Shown here: one piece after another, positions 560 to 54,682 of the stretch
How the letters are laid out: each line of letters begins with the position of its first letter
How positions within the stretch are numbered: position 1 is the stretch's first letter
NCBI RefSeq assembly: GCF_013365535.1
Contig: NZ_CP053590.1
Location: 474,001-538,000, forward strand
Direction of reading: 5' to 3'
Length of the DNA stretch: 64,000 bases
Source of the DNA: Aquimarina sp. TRL1
Lineage (GTDB): Bacteria > Bacteroidota > Bacteroidia > Flavobacteriales > Flavobacteriaceae
Position numbers and translations under genes: made by a program
The notes under the pieces: model-generated
Databases searched by the model: none
What the model was told of the DNA's origin: nothing
Seen by the model: the letters and a program-made list of their open reading frames with translations, nothing else

Positions 560-1390
560 ATGACTATCAACTGCAAAGGCACACTTATCGATCTTTCTTC
601 TCCAAAAGTAATGGGAATCTTAAACCTCACTCCTGATTCTTTCTATGACGGAGGATTTTATAAAAATGAAACACTGATTCTTAAACAAGTAGAAAAATTA
701 TTAAACGAAGGAGCTAGTTTTATTGATCTTGGCGCATATTCTTCCAGACCAGATGCTACTCATATATCGATTGAAGAAGAGAAAAAAAGAATACTTCCTA
801 TTATCGCATTACTGCTCAAAAAATTTCCTGAAGTACTGTTGTCTATCGATACTTTTAGAAGTGAAATTGCTCGACTAAGTATTGAAGCCGGAGCAGCGAT
901 TATTAATGATATCTCAGCTGGAAACCTGGATAATCAAATGTTAAAAACAATAGGAAACCTTCAGGTTCCATATATTATGATGCATATGAAAGGAACTCCT
1001 CAGACTATGAAGTCTTTGAATCAATATAATGACATGATCAAGGAAATTCAGTTTTATTTTTCAGAACGGGTTGCTGCTGCCAGAAAAGAAGGTATTCATG
1101 ATCTTATTATTGATCCCGGGTTTGGATTCGCTAAGAACCCACATCAAAACTTCTCTCTACTCAATCAATTAGAGTTATTACACACACAAGGATTACCTAT
1201 TCTCGCAGGGGTTTCCAGAAAATCAATGATCTACAAAACACTGAACATATCTCCCAGCGAAGCATTAAACGGAACAACATGTTTGCATACGATCTCCTTA
1301 TTAAAAGGAGCATCCATTCTGAGGGTACATGATGTAAAAGAAGCTATGGAATGTATTGCCCTGACAAATATGCTCCAGCAAAAAGATTAA
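560..1390 (+). CDS. folP: Dihydropteroate synthase
   Basis: This enzyme condenses 6-hydroxymethyl-dihydropterin pyrophosphate with p-aminobenzoate to form dihydropteroate in cytoplasmic folate synthesis, and is the sulfonamide target. The 276-residue protein has the family signatures in order: MGILNLTPDSFYDGG (about 18-32), the GASFIDLGAYSSRP pterin loop, SIDTF, INDISAG, MHMKGTPQTM, DPGFGFAK and GVSRKS near the C-terminus. Length and TIM-barrel motif spacing are normal. The ATG at 560 puts the first motif at the expected distance. It is divergent from the DUF1599 gene; downstream the accessory RiPP island separates it from cdaA. Confidence 0.97.
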   Translation: MTINCKGTLIDLSSPKVMGILNLTPDSFYDGGFYKNETLILKQVEKLLNEGASFIDLGAYSSRPDATHISIEEEKKRILPIIALLLKKFPEVLLSIDTFRSEIARLSIEAGAAIINDISAGNLDNQMLKTIGNLQVPYIMMHMKGTPQTMKSLNQYNDMIKEIQFYFSERVAAARKEGIHDLIIDPGFGFAKNPHQNFSLLNQLELLHTQGLPILAGVSRKSMIYKTLNISPSEALNGTTCLHTISLLKGASILRVHDVKEAMECIALTNMLQQKD

Positions 1391-1763
1391 TACGTTACTA
1401 ATCAACTGAATACGATTCTTTCATAAATCAATACTACTATATAGATACCTATCTTTATGGCAGGTCGTCTCATGTCCTGAAACAATATACGGTCTAAGAA
1501 AGTGTTTTACAATTTCTACAATTGAACGTATTTATGAAGCAACTCCTCTCATACAAGTACATGAGATATATTTCAGGAAATGAATATTAATTTCGAACTC
1601 TCTTTCTGAACATTTAAATCTTGACTCATTGAGCAAAAAAATCAAAGAAACCGGGTAATATTCTTCTTATTCCCACACTGTATTGTTAGAACGATAAGCC
1701 TCGAAAAAGCATAATCAACTATCATCGTATTAAAATGTATGTTTACACAATACCTATACTCCA
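1391..1763 (+). other. Intergenic region, no gene seen
   Basis: This 373-bp AT-rich gap lies between folP and the membrane LuxR gene. I find no convincing reading frame, tRNA or terminator after folP, and no exact TAnnTTTG promoter element. It contains a short inverted repeat (CTCAT...ATGAG around 1546-1565) of unknown meaning. It marks the left border of the accessory island. Confidence 0.5.
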
Positions 1764-3326
1764 ATGAATGGATTGATCAGAACACTTATATCACTTCTTC
1801 TTTTATCTTTTATTTCAAGCTGCACAAAGACCAATAGTGATCTCACTGATATTAGTTTTTCATACTGCTCTTATTCAGATAATTCAAATCAATATACGAT
1901 CAAAACTATAGAGAAAATTCCTTTTCATATATCGGAGAAGGTAAATATTCATTTTTTTAAAGGGACAATATGGATAGCCTTAAAAATAACAAATCATAGC
2001 CCAAGCAGAAAAACGCTTATTATACATAATAATGACAGAATAAATCGGAATTACAAATTCTATAAACTCGACTCGACGATAAACCAATTGCATTCTTTAA
2101 ACACTATCAAAGACATCCAATATAACGACGATCGTTTTTTTAATTTTTCGAAACCCAATTTCAGGATTGTTCTGGAACCTCATGAGCAAGGAACTTACTA
2201 TATACAAACCAGCAATAATGGAAAAGTAGTTCGGGCAACTCCTTACATAACATCCCTACAGGAATTTATCAAGATTATATATTGGGATACTATTGAAAAT
2301 ATTTTCTTCTATGGGATGATGTTCATTATCTTTTGTATTACTATTTTTTACTGGATTATATTGAAAAAAAAGCTCTATTTATTCTATACTTTATACATTC
2401 TATTCACCTGTTTTCTTTATATAGGTTTTGACGGTTATTTATACGGTCATGACCTTCCCATCATTATAGTTGAGCATTTAATTTTTGTTTTTTACAAGTG
2501 TAGTATTTTTTTTCTCATCATATTTAGTGCCCATTTTTTAGGAATCAAAAAAACATATCCGCAGTTTTATTTATATCTAAAATGCTATACTGTAATCGTG
2601 ATAACAGGATTGTTAATCTATCAATTACTTTTTTGCTCTACTCAAATAGGAAAAATACATATCGTTGAATATGGATTTGGGGTGGGGTGGTTATTACTAC
2701 TATTATCAATGATTATTAAAACTGCACAGAAACAAAAGCAAGAAACAATACAATATGTATTAGCCATGTCATTTGCCTTATTTTTTGTTAGTATCGGAAT
2801 CCTTAATATCTGCATCGTTTCCGATGTAACAGGCAATACTTTTTTTAAAATTGGAACCACCTTTGAGTTTATAATTTTCACCTATTCCACAGCACATATC
2901 TTGGGTAAGAAAAGCAACAAAATAAAGCAGTATATCCGACATCAAAGTATTTTGGAAAACTCCAATATCAAGCTACAATCAAAACTTTATCAGGTCAACA
3001 ACACCAAAATTAAAAAAACCGATTTTTTGAATATTTTTAAGTTACTCGAGTCTAATCTCACAAATGAAGGAGAATGGGCAAGTTTTAAACAAAAGTTTCA
3101 GGAATTAAACCCTCATTTTTTGTCTAATTTATATGAGAAGCATCCAGAATTATCCAAAAATGAAATCAGATTACTCACACTCGTAAAAATAGGGTTTACT
3201 CAAAAAGAGATTTCGAATATGTTGTTTATCACAGAGGGAAGTGTAAAAAAAGCAAAGCAACGGGTAAGAAAAAAAATTGCTATCAGTACTAATGTTACCC
3301 TATCAAACTATTTATCGATTTTTTAG
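1764..3326 (+). CDS. Membrane-anchored 7TM (7TMR-DISM) protein with LuxR-type HTH
   Basis: The 520-residue protein starts with a lipoprotein-like signal (SFISSC, Cys about 20). An extracellular region to about residue 165 resembles a 7TMR-DISM sensory domain. Hydrophobic helices follow from about 175 to 380, then a short coiled segment. A LuxR/GerE-like helix-turn-helix lies at about 460-515 (ELSKNEIRLLTLVKIGFTQ, followed by ISNMLFITEGSVKKAKQRVRKK). The architecture implies a one-component regulator that senses outside the cell and acts on DNA while membrane-bound; the ligand is unknown. It precedes the precursor peptide gene on the same strand, so it is the natural candidate regulator of the RiPP island. 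That role is inferred from position only. Confidence 0.85.
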   Translation: MNGLIRTLISLLLLSFISSCTKTNSDLTDISFSYCSYSDNSNQYTIKTIEKIPFHISEKVNIHFFKGTIWIALKITNHSPSRKTLIIHNNDRINRNYKFYKLDSTINQLHSLNTIKDIQYNDDRFFNFSKPNFRIVLEPHEQGTYYIQTSNNGKVVRATPYITSLQEFIKIIYWDTIENIFFYGMMFIIFCITIFYWIILKKKLYLFYTLYILFTCFLYIGFDGYLYGHDLPIIIVEHLIFVFYKCSIFFLIIFSAHFLGIKKTYPQFYLYLKCYTVIVITGLLIYQLLFCSTQIGKIHIVEYGFGVGWLLLLLSMIIKTAQKQKQETIQYVLAMSFALFFVSIGILNICIVSDVTGNTFFKIGTTFEFIIFTYSTAHILGKKSNKIKQYIRHQSILENSNIKLQSKLYQVNNTKIKKTDFLNIFKLLESNLTNEGEWASFKQKFQELNPHFLSNLYEKHPELSKNEIRLLTLVKIGFTQKEISNMLFITEGSVKKAKQRVRKKIAISTNVTLSNYLSIF

Positions 3327-3375
3327 CATTCTATCATCACTCCTCCTAAAAAAACCTCTTATTTTTAAAGTATTA

Positions 3376-3404
3376 CCCCTATTGTCCCCTCTTTTGTCTC
3401 CCCT
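3376..3404 (+). repeat. Triple CCCCT-box cluster upstream of gwsA
   Basis: Three CCCCT boxes (3376-3380, 3386-3390, 3400-3404) stand out in otherwise AT-rich DNA. The last two belong to a longer imperfect direct repeat, TTGTCCCCT and TTGTCTCCCCT. They lie about 30-60 bp upstream of a -7-like element and 150-180 bp before the gwsA start. They could be operator sites for the adjacent LuxR-type regulator. Low-complexity pyrimidine sequence is the alternative. Confidence 0.3.
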
Positions 3405-3434
3405 GTAAAAAGCATATTTACTCTGCTTTCTTTA

Positions 3435-3442
3435 TAATTTTG
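3435..3442 (+). promoter_or_regulatory. Candidate -7 element for gwsA
   Basis: TAATTTTG matches the Bacteroidota -7 consensus TAnnTTTG exactly. It implies a leader of about 105 nt for the precursor peptide gene. No TTG lies at the usual -33 spacing, so an activator may be required, or the match may be chance. Confidence 0.35.
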
Positions 3443-3555
3443 ATCTCACTGGAATTCTAGTAAAAATATTATCAAACAAAAAACTGATAATCTATTGAGG
3501 CAGCCGAAAATCATATAGAGTAGGCATCACCATTTTTTTTATAATCAAACAATTC

Positions 3556-3804
3556 ATGAAAAAATTAGATTCGTTTACATCAAAAAAACTCGTCTTAGAT
3601 ATGAATAATATCCAGGGAGGATTATCTCCTGCAGCAGCAGCTAGACGTAATATCAGACATTGGATATCTAGAACGGATGTGGGGCATGGACCATCAAATG
3701 ACTGGCCCGGACACGGGAACCTTGGATGGCTTTCCGGAACCCCTGCTAATCAAGCTCTTCCCGACAATGATCCCTTTGGAAACATATCGTTGGATACTAA
3801 TTAA
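3556..3804 (+). CDS. gwsA: Grasp-with-SPASM RiPP precursor peptide
   Basis: This 82-residue peptide has a two-part structure. The leader MKKLDSFTSKKLVLDMNNIQGG is lysine-rich and ends in a Gly-Gly site (21-22), typical of Bacteroidota precursors cleaved by C39-type peptidases. The core (23-82) is rich in Gly, Asn, Asp, Pro, Trp and His, with HWISRTD at 35-41 and NDWPGHG at 48-54. The core contains five Asp (41, 49, 70, 72, 80) and eight Ser/Thr but no Lys and no Glu. It is followed by a strong hairpin and then the ATP-grasp and SPASM genes, so assignment as the modified peptide rests on leader form and context. I do not recognise the core sequence. Confidence 0.85.
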   Translation: MKKLDSFTSKKLVLDMNNIQGGLSPAAAARRNIRHWISRTDVGHGPSNDWPGHGNLGWLSGTPANQALPDNDPFGNISLDTN

Positions 3805-3810
3805 GAAAAA

Positions 3811-3841
3811 GCCTTCCCTGATTTCTTTGATCAGGGAAGGC
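3811..3841 (+). terminator. Perfect 12-bp hairpin between gwsA and gwsG
   Basis: GCCTTCCCTGAT (3811-3822) pairs perfectly with ATCAGGGAAGGC (3830-3841) across a 7-nt loop. It begins 6 nt after the gwsA stop and is followed by CTCTAAAATA rather than a T-run. It therefore looks like a leaky terminator or a 3' stabiliser for the precursor message, allowing more precursor than enzyme to be made. Confidence 0.75.
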
Positions 3842-3861
3842 CTCTAAAATATAGATAACCG

Positions 3862-4905
3862 ATGAAAATAGGAATATTACTAAGTCAACAAGGAGATCCC
3901 TGCGGTCATGAAATATATCAATGGATCATATCTTTTGGGCATACCCCTGTAGCTATCTATGAAAAAGAAATATTAGAAAATGAAGCGCTTTTCCTTCATA
4001 TATCGACTACTTCATTTGAGTTTCAGATTACAGATCTCCATGGAAATACATTTGATTTTACTGAAATAGATTTCTTTTTTCAAAGGACCTGGTCCTCTGA
4101 AAGAATAAAAACAACCAACAATGTGATAATTTCTGAAGAAGACAGTTTTAAATCTATAGAAATAACAGCTATCAGAGATTTTATTTTGAGATGGCTAAAG
4201 CAGCAAAAAAAACTCATAGGTTATAGTAGTCATCTTTCCAAAAACAAGCTAAGTCAGTTGTTAGTTGCCAGAAATTCAGGGTTTAAAATACCTCAAACTA
4301 TCATAACCAAAAAAAAGAAAGACCTTCTATCTATATTTAAGAAAAAACAAATTGTTACCAAATCTATCCAAACAGAGTATATCAGTAAAGAGTCAGATGG
4401 GTATCGCACCAATTATTCAACAATTATAGATATTAACGATCTACCTGAGGAGTTTTTCCCTGCACTTTTTCAATCCAAAATAGAAAAAATATTAGAGTTA
4501 AGAATTTTTTATTTTTTGGGGGAATTTTATAGTGTAGCGATGAAACCAAATCGTAATGAGAAAGAAGTAGATATTCGCAAACTTTTGGCTAGCGACAGAA
4601 CTATCAATTACCCTTATCAGCTCCCCAAAAAAATCGAAGGCTGCATAACTCTTTTAATGAAAACATTGGAGTTAGACATGGGATCATTAGATGTCATTCT
4701 TGATGTCGATCAAAATTATGTATTTCTAGAAGTTAATCCCCATGGACAAATAAGCATGGTTTCACAAGGTTATGGATACCCGCAGGTAGCAGAAAATATC
4801 GCAACGGCATTAACAAATAAAAACGGGCATTTCCAAAATGAAAAAATCAACAGTAATCATCGCACAAAACACGTCCGAACCCTTCAAAAAAATAAGAGTT
4901 TATGA
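3862..4905 (+). CDS. gwsG: Grasp-with-SPASM system ATP-grasp peptide maturase
   Basis: This 347-residue ATP-grasp ligase belongs to the graspetide/microviridin-type group, which activates side-chain carboxylates with ATP and joins them to Ser/Thr hydroxyls or Lys amines. Visible marks are an N-terminal pre-ATP-grasp region with FFFQRTW (about 73-79), central Lys-rich ATP-binding strands (IVTKSIQTEYI), ELRIFYFLGEFYSVAMKP, and the metal/ATP site LDMGSLDVILD...FLEVNPHGQISM near 275-310. The ATG at 3862 gives a normal start (MKIGILLSQQGDPCGHEI). After NIATAL the protein carries an extra tail of roughly 25 basic residues that overlaps a second reading frame. It lies 57 bp after gwsA and 75 bp before gwsS, consistent with one operon. 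Confidence 0.88.
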   Translation: MKIGILLSQQGDPCGHEIYQWIISFGHTPVAIYEKEILENEALFLHISTTSFEFQITDLHGNTFDFTEIDFFFQRTWSSERIKTTNNVIISEEDSFKSIEITAIRDFILRWLKQQKKLIGYSSHLSKNKLSQLLVARNSGFKIPQTIITKKKKDLLSIFKKKQIVTKSIQTEYISKESDGYRTNYSTIIDINDLPEEFFPALFQSKIEKILELRIFYFLGEFYSVAMKPNRNEKEVDIRKLLASDRTINYPYQLPKKIEGCITLLMKTLELDMGSLDVILDVDQNYVFLEVNPHGQISMVSQGYGYPQVAENIATALTNKNGHFQNEKINSNHRTKHVRTLQKNKSL

Positions 4906-4987
4906 CAGAAGAATTTATCATAAGGGACTAAAAACATCCGCTTTTAGCTCTTCCAGATTTTATAAAAACATATCGCAATATGGTTAG
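4838..4987 (+). CDS. Small overlapping ORF (49 aa), unknown
   Basis: An ATG at 4838, inside the 3' end of gwsG but in another frame, opens a 49-codon frame (starts MKKSTVIIAQNTSEPF, ends SRFYKNISQYG). It bridges the gwsG-gwsS gap and stops 8 nt inside gwsS. The product is basic and Ser/Tyr-rich, without a Gly-Gly leader or signal peptide. It could be a translational-coupling leader, a small product, or chance; no family is recognised. Confidence 0.25.
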   Translation: MKKSTVIIAQNTSEPFKKIRVYDRRIYHKGLKTSAFSSSRFYKNISQYG

Positions 4988-6008
4988 TCAATGTACTCGA
5001 TTTGCAATTACCGAAGGGTTCAGCAGAGAAATACTTATTAATTACGAAAAGGAAATTCAAGCCACTCCAAAAGGTTTTAGTAAATACCTCATAAACAAAG
5101 AGAAAGGAAACAAAGAATATGATAAATTCATAAGTGACAATGCTTTATATTCAATTCACCCAAAAGCAAATGGATATGTATGGAATTCATTCAGTTTTAT
5201 TACAAATCTTATCATTGATATTTCAGTTAATACCATAGATACTCCCATATCCCCAATACTAAACGAATTATTAGTTGAAGCAATTGAAATACGATATCTG
5301 ATAAGAAGTCAAAAAAAACTGGAACAGTATCTAACTAAAATTTCTGGAGTCAGTTTAAGAACCATTCATATTGTCATTAAGGATATGGAAGTTGATGAAA
5401 AATACCTAAGTCGGCTATTCTCGCACCCACTGATTAAAAACATTGCATTACCAATAAGTTTTAAAAAATCTTTAACCTTAGACGTAATACATAAAGATAT
5501 GAGCCAAGGCATCAGTTTTTATGATCCAGAAGAAAAAAGTCTGATTAATCTACATATCACTCCTAGCTACGAATTAGTATCAGAATCTAAAGAATACCAT
5601 ACTTATTTTAATCGCAAATTATACATCAGCAGTTCATGTCAGGTAAAAAATGCTCCAGAGAGTACCGAAGAATTTGCTGATATTCGATTGATTGACTGTA
5701 AAGAATTAAAAACTATAGTACAAAGCATTGCTTTTCAAAAATACTGGAGGGTTACCAAAGATAACTGTGATGTATGCAGTGACTGTGAGTTTAGGAATAT
5801 TTGTGTAGATCGCAGAATTCCCAAACAAAGAGAAGAACGATGGTATCATGAGAAAGAATGCAACTACAATCCATATATCAATAAATGGAAAGGAGAAACT
5901 GGATATGTATCTTTGCAGACAACAGGAATTATCAGTTCTGCCAAAACATTTCGTATTGATTCAGATAATGTAGCATATTTAAATCGAATACTCTGGGAAG
6001 AAATATAA
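4980..6008 (+). CDS. gwsS: Grasp-with-SPASM system SPASM-domain peptide maturase
   Basis: The 342-residue protein has a C-terminal SPASM-like Cys cluster, C263-x2-C266-x2-C269-x5-C275 (CDVCSDCEFRNIC), plus C294. It lacks the CxxxCxxC radical-SAM motif, which is the defining feature of the GwsS family: a SPASM protein paired with an ATP-grasp enzyme rather than a radical-SAM enzyme. The segment KLYISSSCQVKNAPES (213-228) matches the usual region before the SPASM cysteines. The N-terminus SQCTRFAITEGFSREIL resembles family N-termini, supporting the ATG at 4980; the frame is open only back to 4932. It probably binds precursor or assists GwsG; its exact chemistry is not established. Confidence 0.85.
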   Translation: MVSQCTRFAITEGFSREILINYEKEIQATPKGFSKYLINKEKGNKEYDKFISDNALYSIHPKANGYVWNSFSFITNLIIDISVNTIDTPISPILNELLVEAIEIRYLIRSQKKLEQYLTKISGVSLRTIHIVIKDMEVDEKYLSRLFSHPLIKNIALPISFKKSLTLDVIHKDMSQGISFYDPEEKSLINLHITPSYELVSESKEYHTYFNRKLYISSSCQVKNAPESTEEFADIRLIDCKELKTIVQSIAFQKYWRVTKDNCDVCSDCEFRNICVDRRIPKQREERWYHEKECNYNPYINKWKGETGYVSLQTTGIISSAKTFRIDSDNVAYLNRILWEEI

Positions 6009-6182
6009 CGGTTATCATACTATTATGGAAGCCCTCCTTACCTACCTCAACAAAAATAAAGAATACAGTTAAATCCCCCTAACCGACACTTTATACATTA
6101 TTATTTTGAACATCGTCTTTTATTAGAAGTTTTTGAAATCTAAGTTCCCTAATTTTTCTATTTTTACAAAAAAAGGGGTGCT

Positions 6183-6959
6183 TTGGATTTAATAAACCTT
6201 AGATTTTTAGATGTTTTAGACATTGTACTAGTTGCATTTCTGCTCTACTACGTATACAAACTCGTAAAGGGAACTGCTGCGATCAATATTTTTATAGGGA
6301 TTGTTATTATTTATCTGGTATGGAAATTAACGCAGTTCCTCGATATGGAAATGTTAAGTAGTGTACTAGGAGAGTTCATTGGTGTAGGAATGTTTGCTCT
6401 GATTGTTGTATTTCAGCAAGAGATCCGGAAATTCCTTTTGATGATCGGTTCTACAAATTTCGGTAGAAGGCGAAAGTTTTTAAAACAACTAAAGTTTGTA
6501 CGGGACAGCTCTGAGGAAATCGATACCGATGTTGCTTCAATTATTAAAGCCTGTAATAATATGGGAGTTTCCTATACCGGGGCGTTAATTATCCTCAAAA
6601 GAAACACTTCTCTTGATTTTGTAAAAAGCTCTGGTGATGCAATGGATATACAGGTAAACACTCCAATTATAGAAAGTATATTTTATAAAAACAGCACTCT
6701 ACACGATGGTGCTATGATCATTGAAGATAATAAAATAGTTGCCACACGAGTTATTTTGCCTGTTACAAATGAACGAGACATCCCTCTTCGTTTTGGTCTC
6801 AGACATCGGGCTGCCATTGGGGTGTCTGAAAAAACAGATGCACTGGCATTGGTAGTCAGTGAGGAAACCGGACGAATTTCTTATATTAAAAATGGAAATT
6901 TTGTAGCATTTAAAGACATGTCAGAATTATCAAAAAAAATAAAACAGGATCTTTCATAA
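6183..6959 (+). CDS. cdaA: Diadenylate cyclase CdaA
   Basis: This membrane enzyme makes cyclic di-AMP from two ATP. The 258-residue protein has N-terminal hydrophobic helices (about 10-45 and 58-78) and a DisA_N/DAC domain with the catalytic DGA (175-177, in TLHDGAMII) and RHR (208-210, in RHRAAIG). The start is a TTG at 6183 (reads MDLINLRFLDVLDIVLVA) preceded by AAAAAAAGGGGTGC, one of the few purine-rich ribosome sites here. No in-frame ATG precedes the first helix. In related genomes I expect it next to folP; here the RiPP island separates them. It is convergent with the LytTR gene. Confidence 0.95.
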   Translation: MDLINLRFLDVLDIVLVAFLLYYVYKLVKGTAAINIFIGIVIIYLVWKLTQFLDMEMLSSVLGEFIGVGMFALIVVFQQEIRKFLLMIGSTNFGRRRKFLKQLKFVRDSSEEIDTDVASIIKACNNMGVSYTGALIILKRNTSLDFVKSSGDAMDIQVNTPIIESIFYKNSTLHDGAMIIEDNKIVATRVILPVTNERDIPLRFGLRHRAAIGVSEKTDALALVVSEETGRISYIKNGNFVAFKDMSELSKKIKQDLS

Positions 6960-7054: not shown

Positions 7055-7732
7055 TTATTCTTTGATCCGTTTGAAAAATTCAGAGATATAGGTTTTTCCG
7101 ATAGATATCGCATGATCTTTAATTAAGATTCTATTTCCTTCCACTTTTTCTATTTTGTTAAAATTCACAATATAAGATCGATGTACCCGGACAAAACCAT
7201 CAGGCTTTAACTTTTCTTCCCAGTTATTCATACTATCCTGAATCAATATCTTTATTCCATCTCCCACAATAGATACATAATCTACTTCGGCCTTTATATA
7301 ATCGATATCTGTTTTTCGTATTTTATGAAATGTTTTATCTGCATACACAAAAATCTCCGGGTTTTCCTGAGATCGTTCTTCTGGCGCAATTGCTTTTTGT
7401 ATTCTGTGCACTGCTTTTAGAAAACGACTATACGAAAAAGGTTTTAGCAAATAATCTTCTACCGCTTCTTCAAAAGCATCTATGGCATAATCCCGATATG
7501 CTGTCGTAATAATCACTCTGGGTTTTTCATCCAGACTTTTTAGAAAGTCAAGTCCATTGATTTCTGGCAACTGCATATCTAAAAATAAAAAATCAGCTTC
7601 CTTCATTACTGACAACGGAAGATCTGTTGCTGATTCGTACACCCCGATACATTCTACATACGAAGTCCTCTCTATAAAATTAGTAAGCAACTGCTGTGCT
7701 GGCAATTCATCTTCTATTATAATACATTTCAT
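7055..7732 (-). CDS. LytTR family response regulator
   Basis: This 225-residue regulator has a receiver domain (about 1-120) with acidic residues CIIIEDE, the phospho-acceptor Asp in LFLDMQLPEINGLDFL, TTAY and LLKPF. A C-terminal LytTR DNA-binding domain (about 125-220) includes FHKIRKTDIDYIKAEVDYVSI, FVRVHRSYIVNFNKI and ISIGKTY. It would be phosphorylated by the kinase encoded just upstream and bind paired direct repeats. It is the third gene of the OMP-kinase-regulator unit, 73 bp after the kinase. Confidence 0.95.
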   Translation of the reverse strand: MKCIIIEDELPAQQLLTNFIERTSYVECIGVYESATDLPLSVMKEADFLFLDMQLPEINGLDFLKSLDEKPRVIITTAYRDYAIDAFEEAVEDYLLKPFSYSRFLKAVHRIQKAIAPEERSQENPEIFVYADKTFHKIRKTDIDYIKAEVDYVSIVGDGIKILIQDSMNNWEEKLKPDGFVRVHRSYIVNFNKIEKVEGNRILIKDHAISIGKTYISEFFKRIKE

Positions 7733-7805
7733 ATGTTCACACTGTTATAGCAATACGTATCTCAAATACGTCAAAAAAACTGCTTTTTATACAATCTTAA
7801 TCTTA

Positions 7806-8825
7806 TTACTTATTCATTAAATCTACAGTTAGCGTTACCTTAAAAATATTATTCTCTGTTGCTATTATCAATTCATGAGCTTCAGGATATAATAAGGTTA
7901 ATCGTTTCTTTGTATTAGTCAGCCCAATACCACTGCTTTTCCAGATCGTCTCCTGATTATCAGAATATTTTGAATCATATTGATTTTCTACATAGAGATG
8001 CAATTTCTTTTCTTTAAGTTTAATATCTATGATCAACGGAATTTTTTTACCTTTTGCTACACTTGAATATTTAAATGCATTCTCTATAAACGGAATGAGA
8101 AGTAATGGAGGGATCTTTTGTGAAAGATCATCCGTAGTACTCTTAAAATTAATTTCTATTTTATCTGCTAGTCTTGCTTTTTGCAAAGAGATATAGTCTT
8201 CTATAAAAGTAATCTCTTTACTTAATTCCACTCTGTTCTTACCTCCTTCATGCAACATATAATGTAGATTGTCTGACAACTTTAAGATTTTATCCGGCAA
8301 CCCTTCATCTTTTAGTAAGGCGTTAGAATACAACATATTCAATGTATTGAAAAGAAAGTGAGGATTCACCTGTGCTTTTAAGCCATTAAGTTCCGCATTG
8401 ATCCGATTTCTTTCGCTTTTCTCTAAAGCTCTTTGATTCATAATATTTTTCTTAAATCCCCAAAATGCTAAAAAGAATATATTTACAAACAGGTATTCTG
8501 CCAGTCTGCTAAAAAAGCAAATCCTTATATGACAATACATACATGAGATAACACTCCAATAACAACTAACATACACCATTAACAACATTAAAATCACCCA
8601 CACAAGAATAACAAAAGTCCTATTAGAAACTTTTTTAAATATAAAATAAGCCAGGTACACACTCGAACTAATAAATAAAAGCTCAATTCCTTCTTTTTCT
8701 ACATCAAAATGATAGTGATCCTCCCAACCTTTCTCCATCACTGGATAGAAAAAATAAATCACCCAGAATGCTATATGAAATATAATCTCTAATTCCCTGA
8801 TATTTTTGTACTTCATAAAATCCAT
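7806..8825 (-). CDS. LytS-type sensor histidine kinase
   Basis: This 339-residue kinase has four hydrophobic segments in the first 130 residues. A His_kinase domain follows with the phospho-acceptor motif LKAQVNPHFLFNTLN (about 160-175), then an HATPase region with PPLLLIPFIENAFKYS (N-box) and SSGIGLTNTKKRLTLLYP (G-box). It has no periplasmic sensor domain, so it probably senses a membrane or intramembrane cue. It follows the outer-membrane protein gene by 17 bp and precedes the LytTR gene, so the three are probably one operon with a shared signal. Confidence 0.94.
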   Translation of the reverse strand: MDFMKYKNIRELEIIFHIAFWVIYFFYPVMEKGWEDHYHFDVEKEGIELLFISSSVYLAYFIFKKVSNRTFVILVWVILMLLMVYVSCYWSVISCMYCHIRICFFSRLAEYLFVNIFFLAFWGFKKNIMNQRALEKSERNRINAELNGLKAQVNPHFLFNTLNMLYSNALLKDEGLPDKILKLSDNLHYMLHEGGKNRVELSKEITFIEDYISLQKARLADKIEINFKSTTDDLSQKIPPLLLIPFIENAFKYSSVAKGKKIPLIIDIKLKEKKLHLYVENQYDSKYSDNQETIWKSSGIGLTNTKKRLTLLYPEAHELIIATENNIFKVTLTVDLMNK

Positions 8826-8842
8826 GTCATAAATTTACATCT

Positions 8843-11149
8843 TTAATCCATTACCCCACTTTCATACTGCTTTTGTTTTTTATTTCTCTTTTTTATATCA
8901 CCACTTCTGAAATTATAGGTACAAGAAAATGACACTATTCTGGATAAGGGTTTATAATTAGAATTTTCATAAAACCCCGAGCCAAAACTTCTGTTCCTAT
9001 AACGACGTTGATTAAATACATCATCTAAGGTGACATTCAGATTCATTCGCCCATCTAACATCTTATACCTCACCCCTGCACTTACATAATTCACCTGTCT
9101 GGACGTCGAATAGAACCCTTTACTCTCTCCTTGATAATTCCACGTAGCATTTGCCCTAAGTTTTTTTGACAACTTTATCTGATTTCTAAATGTAATATTA
9201 TAATTCTCTCTATAATCATTAAAGAATTCTTCTGCTACCGTTGCATCATTGCGGCTCTCTTCTCTATTATAATTAAAGCTCAAATCATTATCCAGCCATT
9301 TGGTTGGATTAAGTCTCATGCTTAGACTCCCTCCATACCCTTCAGTTTTTCCAATATTATCCACAGTTGTAACAGTCACTCCCTCTTCGTTTAGAAAACG
9401 AATGGTCTGTATGAAGTTTTTCTTTAGTCTAAAATACACTGATGGATAGACTTCTATAATCCCTTTTTTAAACTGATATGACAATTCCATATTATCAGAA
9501 AATTCAGGTTCCAAATCAGGGTTCCCTACAAAAACTGCATACTGATTCCCCTGGGTTGTAAGTGGGTTTAATTGTCTTAGACCCGGTCTGGATGTTCTCT
9601 TGTTATACCCAAAAGCAATCGTGTGGTAATCATTATATGTATAACTCAGATGAAGAGAAGGAAATACATTAAAAAAATTGTTTTTTATTCGGGTGTTTTG
9701 CAATACAAAATCTCCAGTATTCTTATAATCTTCTGCCCGCAAACCTCCCTGAATATCAACATTATACAATTTCGTTGTTAAAATTACATAAGCTGCATGT
9801 GTTTCCTGATCGTTTATTAATTGATTTACATTTTCTAATACTCCTAATTCATTCTCTTCATCACTTTTACTATCCAGTCGCTGAAACTCCCACAAGTATC
9901 CTGCCTCCAACTTTAATTCATCGTTAATCGGTACATTATAATCTCCGGAAACATTCGATATGAACACATTATTTATTATCTGATTATCTGCAATTATTCC
10001 TTCTGGAACAATCGTATTCCTCAAGTCATTTTTATTATCAGAAAGTTTTGCATCAATTTCGAAAAAATGTTCTTGATTATTAAAGAAATGTCTATAATTG
10101 AATCCGTAATTCAATGTTTTATGAATATGAGGATTCAGAGTTCGTTGAGACGTAACTTCTTCTCCTCTTTCTTCTATAAAATTAGTATTGATATCATGAG
10201 AATTATCTGTAAAATCTACCCCTAAAGAAAACTCATTATTTTTATTCGGAAACCAATCAAGTCCTGTATTAAACCGGAAAACATCTCCATTAAAATCAAA
10301 ATGATTTTTTTGTTCAAAAGGATTTTCTCCTATTCTCTCCTGCAGTCCATCACCTTCAAAAAGCAATTTTCTGTATGAACCTCCTACTTTATAATTCACT
10401 TTTTCCTTTCCATACCCTAATGACACTCCCGCATTATAACCGCCTAGTGTATTTCCTCCGATATCAGCATTGAAATTTACTCCTTTTTGAACTTTCTTAT
10501 TCGTAATGATATTGATAATTCCTGTTAGCCCATTTGCTCTATATTTAGCCGATGGAGAAGTAATCACCTCTACTTTATTTATTTCATTAGCAGGTATCTG
10601 CCGTAACAATTCATTAACACTCAACGGAGAAGGTTTCCCATTAACTAGCACATTTACATTCTGACTCCCTCTTAATGAAATATTACCATTCTGATCTGTA
10701 CTGATATCCGATAATTGTTCCAAAACCTGAGAGGCACTACCTCCTGCTGCCAATATATCTTTCCCTACATTGATAACTTTTTTATCTATCAGTTGCGTCA
10801 CTGTTGTTTTTTCTCCTACTACCACCACTTCATCTAAGGACGATACTTCTGCTAACAGGGTAATATCTTTCTTTAATGCTCCTTTTACCTCTACATTCAA
10901 AGAAAATTTTTGATAGCCCATAAACTCTATTTCGAGCATATATCTTCCCGCTTCAATTTCTAAAAAATAATTTCCATCGTCATCAGTAATTCCTCCTTTT
11001 AAGAACGCTCCTGTTTCTTTTTTTAACACAACAGTAGCATAAGGAATTGGAGCCTGTGTTTCACTATCCTTAACAACACCAGAAATACTTTGAGAACAAA
11101 CAAATTGACTCCACAAAATCGACATAATCAACAATAATAACCGTATCAT
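8843..11149 (-). CDS. TonB-dependent-receptor-like outer membrane beta-barrel protein
   Basis: The 768-residue protein has a signal peptide (MIRLLLLIMSILWSQFVCSQ) and a carboxypeptidase-D-like beta-sandwich (ISGVVKDSETQAPIPYATVVL, about 22-105). A plug-like domain follows (DILAAGGSASQVLEQL, ISLRGSQNVNVLVNGKP, INKVEVITSPSAKYRANG). The barrel resembles the 'outer membrane beta-barrel protein' family (OMP_b-brl_3), ending LSRIVSFSCTYNFRSGDIKK. The last 15 residues after that are charged (KKRNKKQKQYESGVMD). It is first in an operon with a kinase and a LytTR regulator, and a direct repeat upstream suggests feedback by that regulator. Substrate unknown. Confidence 0.9.
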   Translation of the reverse strand: MIRLLLLIMSILWSQFVCSQSISGVVKDSETQAPIPYATVVLKKETGAFLKGGITDDDGNYFLEIEAGRYMLEIEFMGYQKFSLNVEVKGALKKDITLLAEVSSLDEVVVVGEKTTVTQLIDKKVINVGKDILAAGGSASQVLEQLSDISTDQNGNISLRGSQNVNVLVNGKPSPLSVNELLRQIPANEINKVEVITSPSAKYRANGLTGIINIITNKKVQKGVNFNADIGGNTLGGYNAGVSLGYGKEKVNYKVGGSYRKLLFEGDGLQERIGENPFEQKNHFDFNGDVFRFNTGLDWFPNKNNEFSLGVDFTDNSHDINTNFIEERGEEVTSQRTLNPHIHKTLNYGFNYRHFFNNQEHFFEIDAKLSDNKNDLRNTIVPEGIIADNQIINNVFISNVSGDYNVPINDELKLEAGYLWEFQRLDSKSDEENELGVLENVNQLINDQETHAAYVILTTKLYNVDIQGGLRAEDYKNTGDFVLQNTRIKNNFFNVFPSLHLSYTYNDYHTIAFGYNKRTSRPGLRQLNPLTTQGNQYAVFVGNPDLEPEFSDNMELSYQFKKGIIEVYPSVYFRLKKNFIQTIRFLNEEGVTVTTVDNIGKTEGYGGSLSMRLNPTKWLDNDLSFNYNREESRNDATVAEEFFNDYRENYNITFRNQIKLSKKLRANATWNYQGESKGFYSTSRQVNYVSAGVRYKMLDGRMNLNVTLDDVFNQRRYRNRSFGSGFYENSNYKPLSRIVSFSCTYNFRSGDIKKRNKKQKQYESGVMD

Positions 11150-48643: not shown

Positions 48644-51600
48644 ATGAAACAAACAAGTAAGCAAATTTTAATGCTGTTTACGGTATTGATTGTGCAGTTA
48701 ACTTTTGCACAAGAAAAAACAGTCACAGGTATTGTAACTGACCAAAGCGGAGTCCCCCTCCCTGGTGTAAACATCTTAATTCAAGGAACAAATTCCGGAA
48801 CCCAAACAGACTTTGATGGAAAATATTCTATAAACACCAATAAAGGTGCAACTTTATTATTTCGTTATATTGGTTTCGCTAATGAAACTATACTTATTAG
48901 CGAACAATCTACAATCAATGTATCTCTCAGAGAAGATGCCGCTGTTCTTGAAGAAGTTGTTGTTACAGCTCAAGGAATACAGAGAGAAAGAAAATCTTTA
49001 GGATATTCAGTCAGTACAGTTCAATCCGAAGAAATCCAACAACAATCCCAGGCAGACCTAGGAAGAATACTTCAGGGAAAAGCAGCAGGAATAAACATTA
49101 CAGCAACTAATGGGGTTTCTGGTTCAGGTACCAATTTCATCATTAGAGGTTACAACTCTATATCAGGAAGCAACCAACCATTATTTATTGTTGATGGAGT
49201 CCCATTTGACGGAGGAGCAAATGAACAAACTGCTTTTTTCGACGGGGTTACTGAATCTAGTAGATTTCTTGACCTAGACCCCAACTCTATAACTGACGTA
49301 AAAGTCCTTAAAGGACTTAGTGCCACTGTACTTTACGGAGAAAGAGGAAGTAATGGAGTAGTCTTAATAACAACAAAAGGAGGCAGCTCTAAAGCTACAA
49401 ATAAAAAACTTGAAGTTACTGTCACAAGCTCTTATTATGTAAATGAAGCGATCCTTCCTAAATTTCAAAAAGATTATGGAGGTGGATTCCACCAAGGATT
49501 TGGTTTTTTCTTTAGTAACTGGGGTCCAAATTTCAACAACCAGAATCCCGCTCCATATGGTTCTTCTTTTAGAGGTATTGCTTCTGACGGAACCGTATTA
49601 GTAGAACACCCTCTTGGTCGATTAGCTGATGAATCTTTAAAAGCAGATTTTCTTGATATTGTAGACACTAACTACAGATACAAAAACTACAATAGTGTAA
49701 AGAACTTTTTCAGATCTGGAGGAGTTTCTGATAACTCTATCAACTTAAGAGGTGGAAACGAAAAAGCCACTTATAACGTTGGCCTCAGCAAACTAGAGGA
49801 CAAAGGGTTTACTCCAGGCAACAAACTATCCAGAATAAACTTATCAGTTGGAGGTAATGCCGAACTTTCTAATAACATAAAAGTTGGTGGAACTATAAAC
49901 TACTCTAACACCGCATACAAAACCCCTCCTATTGCAGCCTCTACAGGAAGCGGAACAATAGGCGATGGATCCTCTGTCTTTGGTGATGTTTTATACACCC
50001 CAAGAAGTGTTGATTTACTAGGACTTCCTTTCCAAACATCAGACGGAAGAAGTGTCTATTACAGATCCGGAAACGACATCCAAAACCCCTTATGGACTGT
50101 TCACAATGCAAAAACAACACAAGATACCGAACGCATATTTGGTAATTTCAGATTTAATTATAAACTAAACGATAATCTTGCATTAGCATATCAATTAGGT
50201 CTTGATACCTATACTGAATTTGGCTCATATGGTCAAAACAAAGGAGGAGTTGACGGAAACCAAACTGGTATTTACAGAACAACACAATCCAAAAATAAAA
50301 TATGGAATCACAACTTAACCTTGAACTACAACAAAGACCTAAACGAAGATCTTAACTTACAATTCATTGTAGGAGGTCAATCAAGGCGAGATGTTTTCCA
50401 ACGAGATGGCGTAGAAAGCACACAACAACTTGCATTTGGTGTTCTTGAACATTACAACTTTGTAAACCACACCACAGTTAACAGCTTCAGTAACAATCCA
50501 ATAGCATTTTTATCAGAAGAAAATCAAGTCGGACTATATGCTGATGCCACCTTAGGCTACAAAGGAGCGTTATTTTTAAATTTCGCAGCAAGAAATGACT
50601 GGACCTCGACTTTAGAGACTGACAACTTTAGTATTTTTTACCCTGCCGCAAGTATCTCTTTTGTGCCTACTGATTTTTTCGATTCAATATCCAACAATGA
50701 CATCCTAAGTTATCTCAAACTTAGACTTGGATACGGAACATCTGCAGGTTTCCCTGCTCCTTATGGAACGAGAAACACATTAGCATTAACATCTAGAGCT
50801 TTTGTTGACAGAGAAGGGAACGTAATATCAGGAAACTCGGTATCTAACAGATTAGGAAACCCTAACCTAAAACCCGAAACCATCTCGGAGATTGAAGCCG
50901 GTATGGACGCTCAGTTCTTCAATAACAAATTCTCCTTAAATGTAAGTGTATACAAAAAAGAATCTAAAGATCTTATAACAGACCAATCTCTTGATCCTGC
51001 AAGCGGCTTTACCGTAACAAGAGTAAATGCAGGATCATTAGAAAACAAAGGAATAGAAGTTGACTTTAACATCAAAGCCTTAAGACTTGAAAATTTTGAA
51101 TGGACTTTAGGAGGAAACTTTTTCGCTGATCAAAATGAAATAACCAAATTACCAGAAGGGACAGACCAAATTGCCCTAACTAGTTCAATAGCAGGTAGAG
51201 CAGCTAATTATGCCATAGTTGGTCAACCATATGGTATATTACAGGGAACAGCAATCCAAAGAGATGCTAACGGCAATAAAATTGTTGATGCTAACGGAGA
51301 ATACCTAGCTACAAACGATATTCAAATATTAGGAGACCCTAACCCTGACTGGACCATGGGAATCACTAACACTTTTAAGTTTTTCAAAAATTTCACATTA
51401 TACACCAATATACTTTATAGACATGGTGGAGATATTGCTTCCCAAACAGCATCTACTCTTCTAGGACGAGGAACTGTTGGTTTCCCAATTGATAGAACCG
51501 CAACCTATATTCTTCCTGGAGTAAAACAAGATGGATCTCCTAATGATATTCAAGTAACAGCAACTACAATTGGATTTAACACCATAGGGTTTGGACCTAA

Positions 51601-51874
51601 TGAATTACAAATCTATGATGGTACAACTATTCGACTTAATGAAGTTAGTCTTTCATACGACATGCCGAATCAATATTTAAAAAAGACTCCTTTCGGAAAC
51701 CTTTCTATAACACTTAGAGGAAACAACCTTTGGTACAAAGCTGTTAACTTCCCTGATGATGTTCGTTTCGATACAAACGCACTAAGTACAGGTGTTGGGA
51801 ACGGACAAGGTATTGATTTCATTACCGGACCGAGTGCAAGAAGATATGGAATCAGCGTAAGAGCTACTTTTTAA
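48644..51874 (+). CDS. SusC/RagA-family TonB-linked outer membrane protein (operon 1)
   Basis: This 1076-residue TonB-dependent transporter has a signal peptide (MKQTSKQILMLFTVLIVQLTFAQ) and a carboxypeptidase-D-like domain (about 26-112, VTGIVTDQSGVPLPGVNILI). The linker AAVLEEVVVTAQG and a plug follow (about 120-240, GRILQGKAAGINITATNGVS, PLFIVDGVPFDGG, ILKGLSATVLYGERGSNGVV). The 22-strand barrel ends GPSARRYGISVRATF. It would form the channel under the SusD-like lid encoded 18 bp downstream. No STN domain is present, so no sigma/anti-sigma control is expected. Substrate unknown. Confidence 0.94.
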   Translation: MKQTSKQILMLFTVLIVQLTFAQEKTVTGIVTDQSGVPLPGVNILIQGTNSGTQTDFDGKYSINTNKGATLLFRYIGFANETILISEQSTINVSLREDAAVLEEVVVTAQGIQRERKSLGYSVSTVQSEEIQQQSQADLGRILQGKAAGINITATNGVSGSGTNFIIRGYNSISGSNQPLFIVDGVPFDGGANEQTAFFDGVTESSRFLDLDPNSITDVKVLKGLSATVLYGERGSNGVVLITTKGGSSKATNKKLEVTVTSSYYVNEAILPKFQKDYGGGFHQGFGFFFSNWGPNFNNQNPAPYGSSFRGIASDGTVLVEHPLGRLADESLKADFLDIVDTNYRYKNYNSVKNFFRSGGVSDNSINLRGGNEKATYNVGLSKLEDKGFTPGNKLSRINLSVGGNAELSNNIKVGGTINYSNTAYKTPPIAASTGSGTIGDGSSVFGDVLYTPRSVDLLGLPFQTSDGRSVYYRSGNDIQNPLWTVHNAKTTQDTERIFGNFRFNYKLNDNLALAYQLGLDTYTEFGSYGQNKGGVDGNQTGIYRTTQSKNKIWNHNLTLNYNKDLNEDLNLQFIVGGQSRRDVFQRDGVESTQQLAFGVLEHYNFVNHTTVNSFSNNPIAFLSEENQVGLYADATLGYKGALFLNFAARNDWTSTLETDNFSIFYPAASISFVPTDFFDSISNNDILSYLKLRLGYGTSAGFPAPYGTRNTLALTSRAFVDREGNVISGNSVSNRLGNPNLKPETISEIEAGMDAQFFNNKFSLNVSVYKKESKDLITDQSLDPASGFTVTRVNAGSLENKGIEVDFNIKALRLENFEWTLGGNFFADQNEITKLPEGTDQIALTSSIAGRAANYAIVGQPYGILQGTAIQRDANGNKIVDANGEYLATNDIQILGDPNPDWTMGITNTFKFFKNFTLYTNILYRHGGDIASQTASTLLGRGTVGFPIDRTATYILPGVKQDGSPNDIQVTATTIGFNTIGFGPNELQIYDGTTIRLNEVSLSYDMPNQYLKKTPFGNLSITLRGNNLWYKAVNFPDDVRFDTNALSTGVGNGQGIDFITGPSARRYGISVRATF

Positions 51875-51892
51875 CTTTAAATTTGATATAAA

Positions 51893-53602
51893 ATGTTAAA
51901 AAAACAAATAAAAAAAATAACCAAAGGAATAACTTTTTTATCCTTTGCTCTCATAATTAGCTCATGCGAGACAACTGAGCTAGAAATATTAGACGACCCT
52001 AACGCTTTAACACCAAATCAAGCGGACATAGATTTATTCCTTAACTCAGCAGAAATAGAACTTTCTACAATATTCGATCGCGAAGGGTTATCCGAATTAG
52101 GTATGGAAGTAACCAGGATCCTACATGGTTTTGGTCCAACCTACAACAATGCATATGCTCCAAGTACAACTAATAACCTTTGGACAATATCGTATGCAGG
52201 AATTTTAGCCGACCTTAGAGCAATTAGACCTATAGCCGAGGAAGGTCAATTATATACTCATGTAGGTATTTCTCAAACACTAGAAGCTTATGTAATAATG
52301 GCATTAGTAGATTATTTTGGCGATATCCCATACTCCGAAGCTTTAAACGGAGCCGAATTCCCTAACCCTAAACTAGACAACGGATCTGATGTCTATAAAG
52401 AAGCAGAAAAGCTATTAAACGAAGCTTTAGTAAATTTCACTAAAGAAGAACTAAGAAAACCTTCTTCAGATCTTTTCTACGGAGGTGACAAATCCAAATG
52501 GATAAAGTTCACCAATACTGTAAAACTAAAGTTACATTTACAAACAAGACTCGTAGACTCAGAAGCAGGCTCAAAAATAAACGCACTGATCTCTGAAGGA
52601 AATCTTATTCTGGATGCCGCAGATGATTTTGTCTTTAAATATTCTGCCACAGATGCAAACCCAGACAGTAGACACCCATTATTTGGTCGTAATTTTGATG
52701 CTGCTGCTGATGTTTCTGACTACATGTCTAACTCCTACATGGTACTTCTTAAAAACGATTATATTTCCGGAGACCCAAGAACCAGGTACTACTTCTATAG
52801 ACAATCTCTTGATTTTACGACTGACCCAAATGAAAATGAATGTGTTACAATCGCCAGACCTACACATTATTCTTCAGAGGACACATACTGTAACCCTGGT
52901 GATGGTTATTGGGGTAGAGATCATTTTGACAATGACGGAATTCCACCAGACGGAGGTAAAAGAACAACATGGGGAGTTTACCCTGTTGGAGGGCAATTTG
53001 ACTACAACCAAGGAGAAGCCGTTAGCGGAAGACAAATTGGTCTAAAAGGAGCCGGAATTGCTCCAATACTACTATCTTCATTCACTAATTTCATGTTAGC
53101 GGAAGCATCTTTAAAATCCGGTGTTAGCGGAGATCCTAAAAGCTATCTTGAAGCCGGAATCAGACAATCTATAAACAAAGTAATTGAATTAGGTAGCACT
53201 ACCCCTGAAATGGAAATAGAATTGGTTGCTGATGACCCTGACACTCCAGAAAATGAAAGAAAAACTGTTAGAGAGATATACGGCTCATCAAGTGCTGATA
53301 TCGATTTATACATAGAAAAAGTATTAGAGCGATACGATAGCTTATCTGGTGACGACAGATTAGAACTTGTAGTAATTGAATACTTCAAAGCTTTATTTGG
53401 AAATGGATTAGAAGCCTATAACACATACAGAAGAACAGGCTTTCCTTCTAACCTACAACCTGCACTTGAGCCACAACCGGGAGAATTCATTAATTCTTTT
53501 TTCTACCCTGAAGAGCTATTCCAACAAAATTCAAATGTCGACCAAAAACCTAATCAAGCAGTTAGAGTATTTTGGGCAGAAGGAGGTCCAACAGTTGATT
53601 AA
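51893..53602 (+). CDS. SusD/RagB-family nutrient-binding lipoprotein (operon 1)
   Basis: This 569-residue surface lipoprotein has the lipobox ALIISSC followed by acidic residues (ETTELEILDD), the export pattern for the cell surface in Bacteroidota. The SusD-like-2 type is suggested by TLEAYVIMALVDYFGDIPYSEAL (TPR region; positions about 125-150) and the C-terminal YFKALFGNGLEAYNTYRRTGFP. It is longer than usual for its type. It pairs with the SusC of this operon as the substrate-capturing lid. Confidence 0.92.
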   Translation: MLKKQIKKITKGITFLSFALIISSCETTELEILDDPNALTPNQADIDLFLNSAEIELSTIFDREGLSELGMEVTRILHGFGPTYNNAYAPSTTNNLWTISYAGILADLRAIRPIAEEGQLYTHVGISQTLEAYVIMALVDYFGDIPYSEALNGAEFPNPKLDNGSDVYKEAEKLLNEALVNFTKEELRKPSSDLFYGGDKSKWIKFTNTVKLKLHLQTRLVDSEAGSKINALISEGNLILDAADDFVFKYSATDANPDSRHPLFGRNFDAAADVSDYMSNSYMVLLKNDYISGDPRTRYYFYRQSLDFTTDPNENECVTIARPTHYSSEDTYCNPGDGYWGRDHFDNDGIPPDGGKRTTWGVYPVGGQFDYNQGEAVSGRQIGLKGAGIAPILLSSFTNFMLAEASLKSGVSGDPKSYLEAGIRQSINKVIELGSTTPEMEIELVADDPDTPENERKTVREIYGSSSADIDLYIEKVLERYDSLSGDDRLELVVIEYFKALFGNGLEAYNTYRRTGFPSNLQPALEPQPGEFINSFFYPEELFQQNSNVDQKPNQAVRVFWAEGGPTVD

Positions 53603-53615
53603 AAAAAGAAAAATC

Positions 53616-54626
53616 ATGAAAAACATATATAAATATCTCTTCATAGCAATAAGCATAGTAATCATTACCAGCTGTGAAGATGAAGACAAAAATCCATTCC
53701 CGGCAAACGAACTTGATTCTTCTGCCGTATTAAGAACCTTAAACATAATTAACACTGAAGTAGACATAAACAATATTTCAGCGTCAAATATCTCCATTGA
53801 AGTAGAAGCAGATGACTTTCTAAATAATAGTCGTTTTGAATCAGTTGATGTATTTGTTTCATTTGTTGACGCATTTGTTGACAAAGACGGAGACCTGACT
53901 CCAACGCCAGATGATGATGATGACATTAGCAAAGAAGATGTCTTAGTAAGAAACATTCCTGCTTCCGAATTCTCAGCTGGTGATAATGGAAAACCAAAAA
54001 AAGTAATATCGGTAGCAGCCAGTGAAGCAATCGATCTTTTAGGTCTCAATTCTGAAATACCAAAAATAGATGGAGGAGATATCTTCAGAATTCGTCTAGC
54101 TATCAAACTAAACAATGGTGATATTTACACTAGCACCAATCTTAATACAAATGTTGCAGGAGGGTTATTTTTCAATTCCCCTTTTAGATATGATGGTAAC
54201 GTTGTTTGTGGCTACCCAGAAACATTTTTAGTAGGAAAATATCAGTTAGAATGGATATCAGGAGTTTTCCCTGCTTTTGGAGTCTCTCAATCCTTTATAG
54301 ACGAAGAAGTTGAAATCACAGCATCCTCAGGAACCGCTAGACAAATAAAAGCAGTTACTTATTTAAAAGAATTTGCTTTTTCTGGACCATTAAATTTCAA
54401 CCTCATATGTGGTAAAATCATCCTTCCAAAACAAGACTCCCCCGGTGGAGTTGGCTGTGGTGGAGGTAACATTATGTTAGAAACAGATGGACAACTTAAC
54501 GCCGGAGCTTTTGATGTAGACGGTGTAGATGACAGTGAGTTTACAATGAAATTTATTGATGCTGTTAATGATGGGGGATGCGGCGCATCTCCTTATGAAG
54601 TAGAACTAAAGTTTACAAAAATCTAA
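53616..54626 (+). CDS. Surface lipoprotein of unknown family, third gene of SusCD operon 1
   Basis: The 336-residue protein (ATG 53616, 13 bp after SusD; upstream in-frame Met codons lie inside SusD) begins with a lipoprotein signal (AISIVIITSC) followed by EDEDKNPFP, an acidic surface-export pattern. An N-terminal beta-rich half includes an Asp-rich run (DKDGDLTPTPDDDDDI, calcium-site-like). The C-terminal half (from about CGYPETFLVGKYQLEWISGV) has several Cys and Gly residues and ends in beta-strands. I do not recognise the family. Position suggests an accessory substrate-binding protein in the way SusE/F serve SusCD. Operons 2 and, as far as visible, 3 lack an equivalent. Confidence 0.75.
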   Translation: MKNIYKYLFIAISIVIITSCEDEDKNPFPANELDSSAVLRTLNIINTEVDINNISASNISIEVEADDFLNNSRFESVDVFVSFVDAFVDKDGDLTPTPDDDDDISKEDVLVRNIPASEFSAGDNGKPKKVISVAASEAIDLLGLNSEIPKIDGGDIFRIRLAIKLNNGDIYTSTNLNTNVAGGLFFNSPFRYDGNVVCGYPETFLVGKYQLEWISGVFPAFGVSQSFIDEEVEITASSGTARQIKAVTYLKEFAFSGPLNFNLICGKIILPKQDSPGGVGCGGGNIMLETDGQLNAGAFDVDGVDDSEFTMKFIDAVNDGGCGASPYEVELKFTKI

Positions 54627-54682
54627 ACCCAAGTAAACAAACACAGTATTTCTGAATTGTTATTTTTAGCCAATTCGCAAAT

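Follow-up and report, generated by a model that had tools for sequence, protein, structure and literature searches.

Gene content of the block

The stretch analysed here (hereafter the window) comprises 64,000 nucleotides (nt) of the Aquimarina sp. TRL1 genome (contig NZ_CP053590.1, positions 474,001 to 538,000) and holds, between folP and cdaA, a block of genes of the grasp-with-SPASM graspetide kind, which is our subject. According to the listing of open reading frames (ORFs), folP, a 7TMR-LuxR regulator, gwsA, gwsG, gwsS and cdaA follow one another on the plus strand, on which all features described below also lie. A precursor with a Gly-Gly (GG) leader, an ATP-grasp ligase and a SPASM protein had been predicted in that order on one strand, and the ORFs are found exactly as claimed. 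To the original prediction the present analysis adds four points: a fourth, small gene; a second gws pair elsewhere in the genome; no transporter in the vicinity; and a SPASM domain that has lost one of its cluster sites.

The ligase gene, gwsG (3862–4905), encodes 347 amino acids (aa) with TIGR04192 as the best match of five listed families (170.9 bits, E 4e-50), short of its curated cut-off of 230; TIGR04185, TIGR04187 and TIGR04184 also match, the E-values of all four running from 4e-50 to 4e-23 and each score lying below cut-off. Solved synthetases are matched as well, namely 7m4s (AMdnB, E 6e-19), 5ig9 (2e-16) and 7mgv (CdnC, 3e-14), the similarity to AMdnB and CdnC spanning residues 125–321. 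GwsG keeps 23 of 23 invariant columns, and its residues D237 and R239, invariant among 11 sequences, stand in a D-I-R stretch, DFR being a motif of graspetide synthetases (PMC13097080). Judged by its sequence, GwsG is a putative ATP-grasp ligase related to the known graspetide synthetases.

The SPASM gene, gwsS (4980–6008, 342 aa), has its best match, of three listed families, in TIGR04193 (87.4 bits, E 1e-24; curated cut-off 175 not reached). Since both scores fall under the curated cut-offs, GwsG and GwsS are better described as divergent relatives than as equivalogs. The predicted grasp-with-SPASM assignment thus stands as far as best-matching families and gene order are concerned, and falls short at the cut-offs. 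With precursor, ATP-grasp gene, small gene and SPASM gene in order on one strand, the block belongs to the grasp-with-SPASM kind (TIGR04192/TIGR04193; “branch 5” of PMC8939145), with which it shares the gene order, a GG leader starting with MKKL and an origin in Bacteroidota, and to which group 14 of PMC13097080 probably corresponds. It differs from typical members in its enzyme scores, in a Cys-free core, in having cluster II ligands only, in the absence of a nearby transporter and in its insertion between folP and cdaA. As a side observation, an upstream ATG in the gwsS frame overlaps the gwsG stop, and a TAA (4929–4931) precedes the ATG at 4980, so that a possible former start lies within 4902–4979.

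The small gene (4838–4987, 49 aa) shares 68 nt with gwsG and 8 nt with gwsS. The “LPL” family of small proteins always sits immediately upstream of the SPASM gene, and its motif resembles a leader motif that is absent from grasp-with-SPASM precursors (PMC8939145); by its position at the 5′ end of gwsS, the window gene may be counted among them. A positional rule finds a small ORF of at least 40 aa at the gwsG–gwsS junction in 105 of 125 gws pairs, window included, and undercounts, as three of the 20 misses (L063, L078, L080) do show such an ORF. Moreover, a profile built from 103 other small ORFs ranks 4838–4987 first among the 353 window ORFs of 30–130 aa (E 1.3e-4; runner-up 0.033). In a 52-row alignment, one Pro and one Lys, the latter part of a C-terminal FYKxIS stretch, reach a conservation of at least 90%; the window protein retains both, reading E-P-F where the LPL motif is expected. 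No NCBIfam model matches it, and its predicted structure is uninformative (predicted local distance difference test score, pLDDT, 68; predicted template modelling score 0.23).

The precursor gene, gwsA (3556–3804), encodes 82 aa, of which the GG at residues 21–22 ends the leader; the 60-aa core is devoid of Cys and holds Ser, Thr and Asp. GwsA has no NCBIfam or Pfam family match at E 1, and its single weak match in the 65 other genomes of the genus (E 0.007, within a 493-aa frame) was taken as chance. Between gwsA and gwsG lies a hairpin of 13 pairs with a 5-nt loop (3811–3841), and the surrounding region (3790–3870) folds at −26.3 kcal/mol, against −11.6 (standard deviation 2.7) for shuffled sequences, none of 200 shuffles being as low. 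Hairpins between precursor and enzyme genes can favour precursor output over enzyme output. A sigma-70 scan returned 16 promoter-like sites, compared with 23.7 in shuffles.

Ahead of these genes, the regulator (1764–3326, 520 aa) combines 7TMR-DISM extracellular and membrane domains with a LuxR-type helix-turn-helix (PF07695 58.8, PF07696 31.1 and GerE, PF00196, 25.0 bits, all above gathering), which agrees with the membrane-tethered LuxR regulator announced for this place. We considered it as a constant component of gws loci and rejected the idea, no similar gene having been found at E 1e-4 in the other gws loci of our set.

Fold and cysteine pattern of GwsS

The structure model of GwsS (pLDDT 90.7) consists of an RRE-like part (precursor peptide recognition element; residues 8–53, three strands and two helices), a partial barrel (about 72–258) and a SPASM remnant (about 259–310). 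In structure comparison it aligns with CteB and TigE from residue 7–8, and the 20 best rows are radical S-adenosylmethionine (SAM) enzymes; Foldseek alone places SuiB on top (E 2.8e-4), at template modelling scores near 0.3 and with a large root-mean-square deviation. GwsS is thus predicted to have the fold of the radical SAM-SPASM maturases (CteB, SuiB, PqqE, anSME), with an RRE-like N-terminus as in CteB and TigE; the available part of a paper on RREs (PMC12710340) contains no passage on SPASM or graspetides. Unlike these maturases, GwsS lacks CX3CX2C and the cluster I ligands and has no apparent site for SAM chemistry. The absence of CX3CX2C, already stated in the original prediction, extends from the window protein to all 125 family frames of at least 300 aa, and by this motif GwsS would fall outside the radical SAM superfamily. 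The Pfam SPASM model reaches its cut-off in one of six GwsS (L068, positions 4–67 of 67), scores below it in two (L005 and L152, where its second half alone is matched) and gives no listed match for three (L079, L062 and the window).

The SPASM motif reads CX9-15GX4C-gap-CX2CX5CX3C-gap-C, auxiliary cluster I (AuxI) is the nearer to the active site in solved maturases, and the AuxI ligands of anSME are Cys255, 261, 276 and 330 (PMC6231123); in AhbD, AuxI corresponds to C223, C256, C274 and C324 and auxiliary cluster II (AuxII) to C312, C315, C321 and C342 (PMC10452713). Canonical GwsS show this layout in alignment, the cluster names being transferred by layout and not from a solved GwsS. Across 149 sequences below 95% identity, the three AuxI motif columns are all Cys in 100, all other than Cys in 47 and mixed in two, i.e., they behave as a block in 147, and Cys fills the four AuxII columns in 148. 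Of the 100 cluster I-bearing sequences, 99 also have Cys in the fourth, upstream AuxI column (CGxI; one gap), where the 47 cluster I-lacking ones show two Cys, 14 other residues and 31 gaps. In the window GwsS, the AuxI columns read Y, A and R and the AuxII columns C, C, C and C (C266, C269, C275 and C294; 5775–5861), leaving the seven-cysteine motif incomplete, with Cys at four of seven positions.

The all-or-none behaviour of AuxI holds in other samplings. In a set of 152 sequences (identical rows thinned), 150 are all-or-none, against 53.5 expected under column independence, an expectation that ignores relatedness. Part of the loci had been fetched by two patterns, one of which includes the cluster II CX2C and biases the count towards cluster II retention; with pattern-fetched loci excluded, the AuxI block is all-or-none in 54 of 54. 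Finally, a hold-out was drawn by profile from the phylum sample after the hypothesis was formed, and it is all-or-none in 17 of 17 (34 new loci, of which 19 passed E 1e-15 and two were gapped, the 15 weak TIGR04193 matches at E 1.5e-7 or weaker being excluded). Rows gapped in any of the seven cysteine columns (11 of 193) were left out of the 152-sequence and hold-out counts.

In a quick tree of 128 rows computed without the cysteine columns, the AuxI state changes three times, compared with a shuffled mean of about 33; at least two of the three changes are backed by starred branches, and the lone exception, L174_123, is flagged as a long branch. Because the state changes three times, the AuxI block appears to have been lost more than once, repeated gain being less likely. 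The Brumimicrobium contig L152 (6597–12269) carries two tandem gws pairs, of which the first encodes a GwsS that lacks the cluster I cysteines and the second one that has them, so that nature itself offers both kinds of GwsS next to each other for comparison. The presence of Cys in the core was tried as an explanation for cluster I and found no support: candidate cores contain Cys in 47 of 60 cases with cluster I and in 16 of 21 without, these cores being picked by regular expression, available for 49 of 87 and 16 of 37 clusters, respectively, and including at least one transporter fragment (L152) among the 21. The equal frequency argues weakly against cluster I binding or joining the core sulfur.

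These observations bear on whether GwsS might be a redox tailoring enzyme, whose cluster or clusters would carry electrons for a C–S, C–C or C–O bond in the core, the radical coming from another protein or the reaction following a SAM-free route. PMC8939145 names these proteins radical SAM enzymes that possibly form such bonds, the predicted fold is that of radical enzymes, and the near-invariance of the cluster II cysteines is what one would expect of a working cluster. Against this stand the absence of a SAM-cluster motif from all 125 frames, the wholesale loss, in 47 of 149 sequences, of the very cluster that lies nearer the active site in solved maturases (PMC6231123), and the similar frequency of core Cys with and without cluster I; we regard such an enzyme as unlikely, if worth keeping in view. 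As GwsS has the predicted fold of a maturase, no member examined has a SAM site and cluster I, near the former active site, can be lost as a whole, SAM radical chemistry by GwsS itself would be unlikely; what persists is the fold, the N-terminal part and the distal cluster. One retained cluster without catalytic parts, encoded beside a 7TMR-LuxR regulator, could also be read as the mark of an iron-sulfur sensor through which oxygen or redox state controls ring closure. Such a sensor is very improbable in our view, for the RRE-like part and the barrel are retained and no such regulator turned up near the other gws loci tested, and we know of no case of a SPASM sensor.

A SPASM domain with AuxII alone is not without parallel. 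For AhbD of non-methanogenic archaea, a sequence-based inference of its authors is that the cysteines of cluster I are absent and AuxII alone is conserved (PMC10452713). This state had thus been inferred before, and the cluster class itself is known; unlike GwsS, which belongs to a peptide pathway and has no SAM-cluster motif, AhbD is a radical SAM heme synthase. In the literature covered, mainly non-subscription (PMC) papers, we found no report of the AuxI split in GwsS, nor of a purified grasp-with-SPASM product.

Insertion site and export

The two flanking genes are folP, encoding dihydropteroate synthase (560–1390; TIGR01496, 293.9 bits, cut-off 162.6), and cdaA, encoding diadenylate cyclase (6183–6959; PF02457 and PF19293 above gathering; TIGR00159, 185.2 bits, slightly below the cut-off of 188.8). 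In related genomes these were expected to be close neighbours, which proved correct. The cdaA gene is present in all 66 genomes of the genus, and folP lies upstream of it, within the stretch read, in 58 of the 65 others, at 29–681 nt (between alignment ends) in 57 of them and, in one (G404), at 1,435 nt with an unrelated ORF in between. In a 59th genome, folP lies about 2.5 kb from cdaA, and in the remaining six it was not seen, five of the stretches ending at a contig edge and one (G425) showing none within 7.5 kb. The window interval, by comparison, measures 4,792 nt, and the regulator and gws queries have no match at E 1e-3 in the folP–cdaA intervals of the other genomes of the genus. As these relatives have folP beside cdaA without the genes of the block, its entry at this spot in the lineage of the present genome is well supported by sequence comparison, and the alternative of an ancient block shared by all relatives does not agree with the intervals found.

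A search for marks of mobile elements (1300–6300) gave, as longest direct pair, 29 nt at 72% identity well within the block, and no route of entry was found. In the GwsS tree, the nearest rows come from a Brumimicrobium (Crocinitomicaceae) and from a second marine Flavobacteriales contig, a grouping with an unstarred support of 85; the window protein sits on a long end branch (1.25), a position consistent with transfer between families. The G+C content is 0.30–0.33 for the regulator, gwsG and gwsS, 0.43 for gwsA and 0.35–0.36 for folP and cdaA. As to G404, its 390-aa ORF of another kind between folP and cdaA (L124, 252–1424) represents a second, unrelated insertion. Two separate contigs of the same genome carry a fragment resembling the regulator N-terminus (L265, 6577–6879; 44% over 101 aa) and a GwsS-like fragment (L266, 7239–7433; 38% over 65 aa), which are perhaps relics.

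A second gws pair of the TRL1 genome (G000:C1:1162301–1164430) scores above both cut-offs (315.4 and 180.9 bits), and its GwsS likewise lacks the cluster I cysteines. Beside it, on the other strand (L005, 8767–15676), we noted by eye an ABC-transporter-like ORF (551 aa) and a frame resembling nonribosomal peptide synthetases (1,747 aa). Four C39 matches exist in the genome, all away from the window block. Two of them belong to uninterrupted frames some 737 aa long, one adjoining three GG-leader ORFs and the other an ORF that resembles HlyD, where our filter found no GG-leader ORF. At L272 (5312–9897) of the same genome, a C39 peptidase transporter beside three small GG-leader ORFs and an HlyD-like ORF forms another peptide cluster. 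Counting distinct gws clusters for which 5 kb of sequence is available on either side, a C39 transporter is found near 14 of 21 cluster I-lacking ones, compared with 35 of 44 cluster I-bearing ones, and export in trans is possible.

The block might instead be decaying, having arrived, lost its transporter and begun to drift without function. To the missing transporter one may add the compressed overlap of gwsG, the small gene and gwsS, the long GwsS branch, the sub-threshold scores of both enzymes and the lack of a close relative among the 65 other genomes of the genus. Yet all four genes are open, and by our estimate chance would very rarely leave 347 and 342 codons free of stops at such a base composition. 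GwsG also retains all of its 23 invariant columns, GwsS the cluster II cysteines and the small protein its two conserved residues. We therefore hold decay to be rather unlikely.

Next to cdaA, the opposite strand (window 7055–11149) carries ORFs that resemble, by eye, a response regulator, a histidine kinase and a TonB-type receptor. Of two TonB-dependent receptors encoded at 48644–58479, the first has a SusD-like gene behind it; these are ordinary uptake loci.

A proposed role for GwsS

We favour, with a probability of about 0.55, a reading in which the block forms a divergent member of the grasp-with-SPASM graspetide clusters and GwsS assists GwsG by holding the peptide, without being catalytic itself. 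In its model, GwsS resembles a radical enzyme deprived of its radical-making site and left with one iron-sulfur site out of two, a state suggesting that the protein holds the peptide for the ring-closing enzyme and performs no chemistry of its own. We infer the following steps. GwsS, a former radical SAM-SPASM maturase now without radical chemistry, would bind the leader of GwsA and offer the core to GwsG, its cluster II acting as a structural pin. GwsG would use ATP to activate Asp carboxylates of the core and would join them to Ser or Thr in ester or amide rings. The small protein would assist, perhaps as a leader-like activator of GwsG, and a C39 peptidase transporter encoded elsewhere would cleave at GG and export the product.

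Several observations weigh against this proposal. The GwsS profile searched against the sequences of solved structures gave a best E of 0.006 and no radical SAM enzyme, and a single SPASM piece found no radical SAM relative either. The strict retention of cluster II would equally suit a role in redox chemistry or electron transfer, and the SPASM protein is treated as a radical SAM enzyme in PMC8939145. Moreover, both enzymes score below the curated cut-offs, GwsG deviates at places otherwise conserved (e.g., AMKPN, where relatives have AIFSQ), and no C39 transporter lies near the block.

A graspetide ligase that depends on a partner has a precedent in the rosaritide synthetase MirB, which is inactive without MirC, a protein whose N-terminal domain weakly resembles an RRE (PMC13097080). 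MirC, unlike GwsS, is described as SurA-like; GwsG may likewise need its partner. A broader version, which we put forward tentatively and consider doubtful, is that the whole GwsS family descends from radical SAM maturases that lost their activity and now serve ATP-grasp ligases as delivery subunits that bind the leader. The leader function would then be divided: GwsS would read the leader of the precursor, the small LPL-like protein would provide in trans a leader-like motif that activates GwsG, and the cluster I-lacking branch, to which the window protein belongs, would be the end stage, with one structural cluster left.

The all-or-none loss of the ligands of one cluster, with the other retained, supplies natural variants by which a structural role can be told apart from a catalytic one. 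The role of the SPASM protein matters for this class of Bacteroidota peptides, which a main survey treats as involving a radical SAM enzyme (PMC8939145). If GwsS is instead a delivery partner, all four genes would be required to produce these peptides in a laboratory host.

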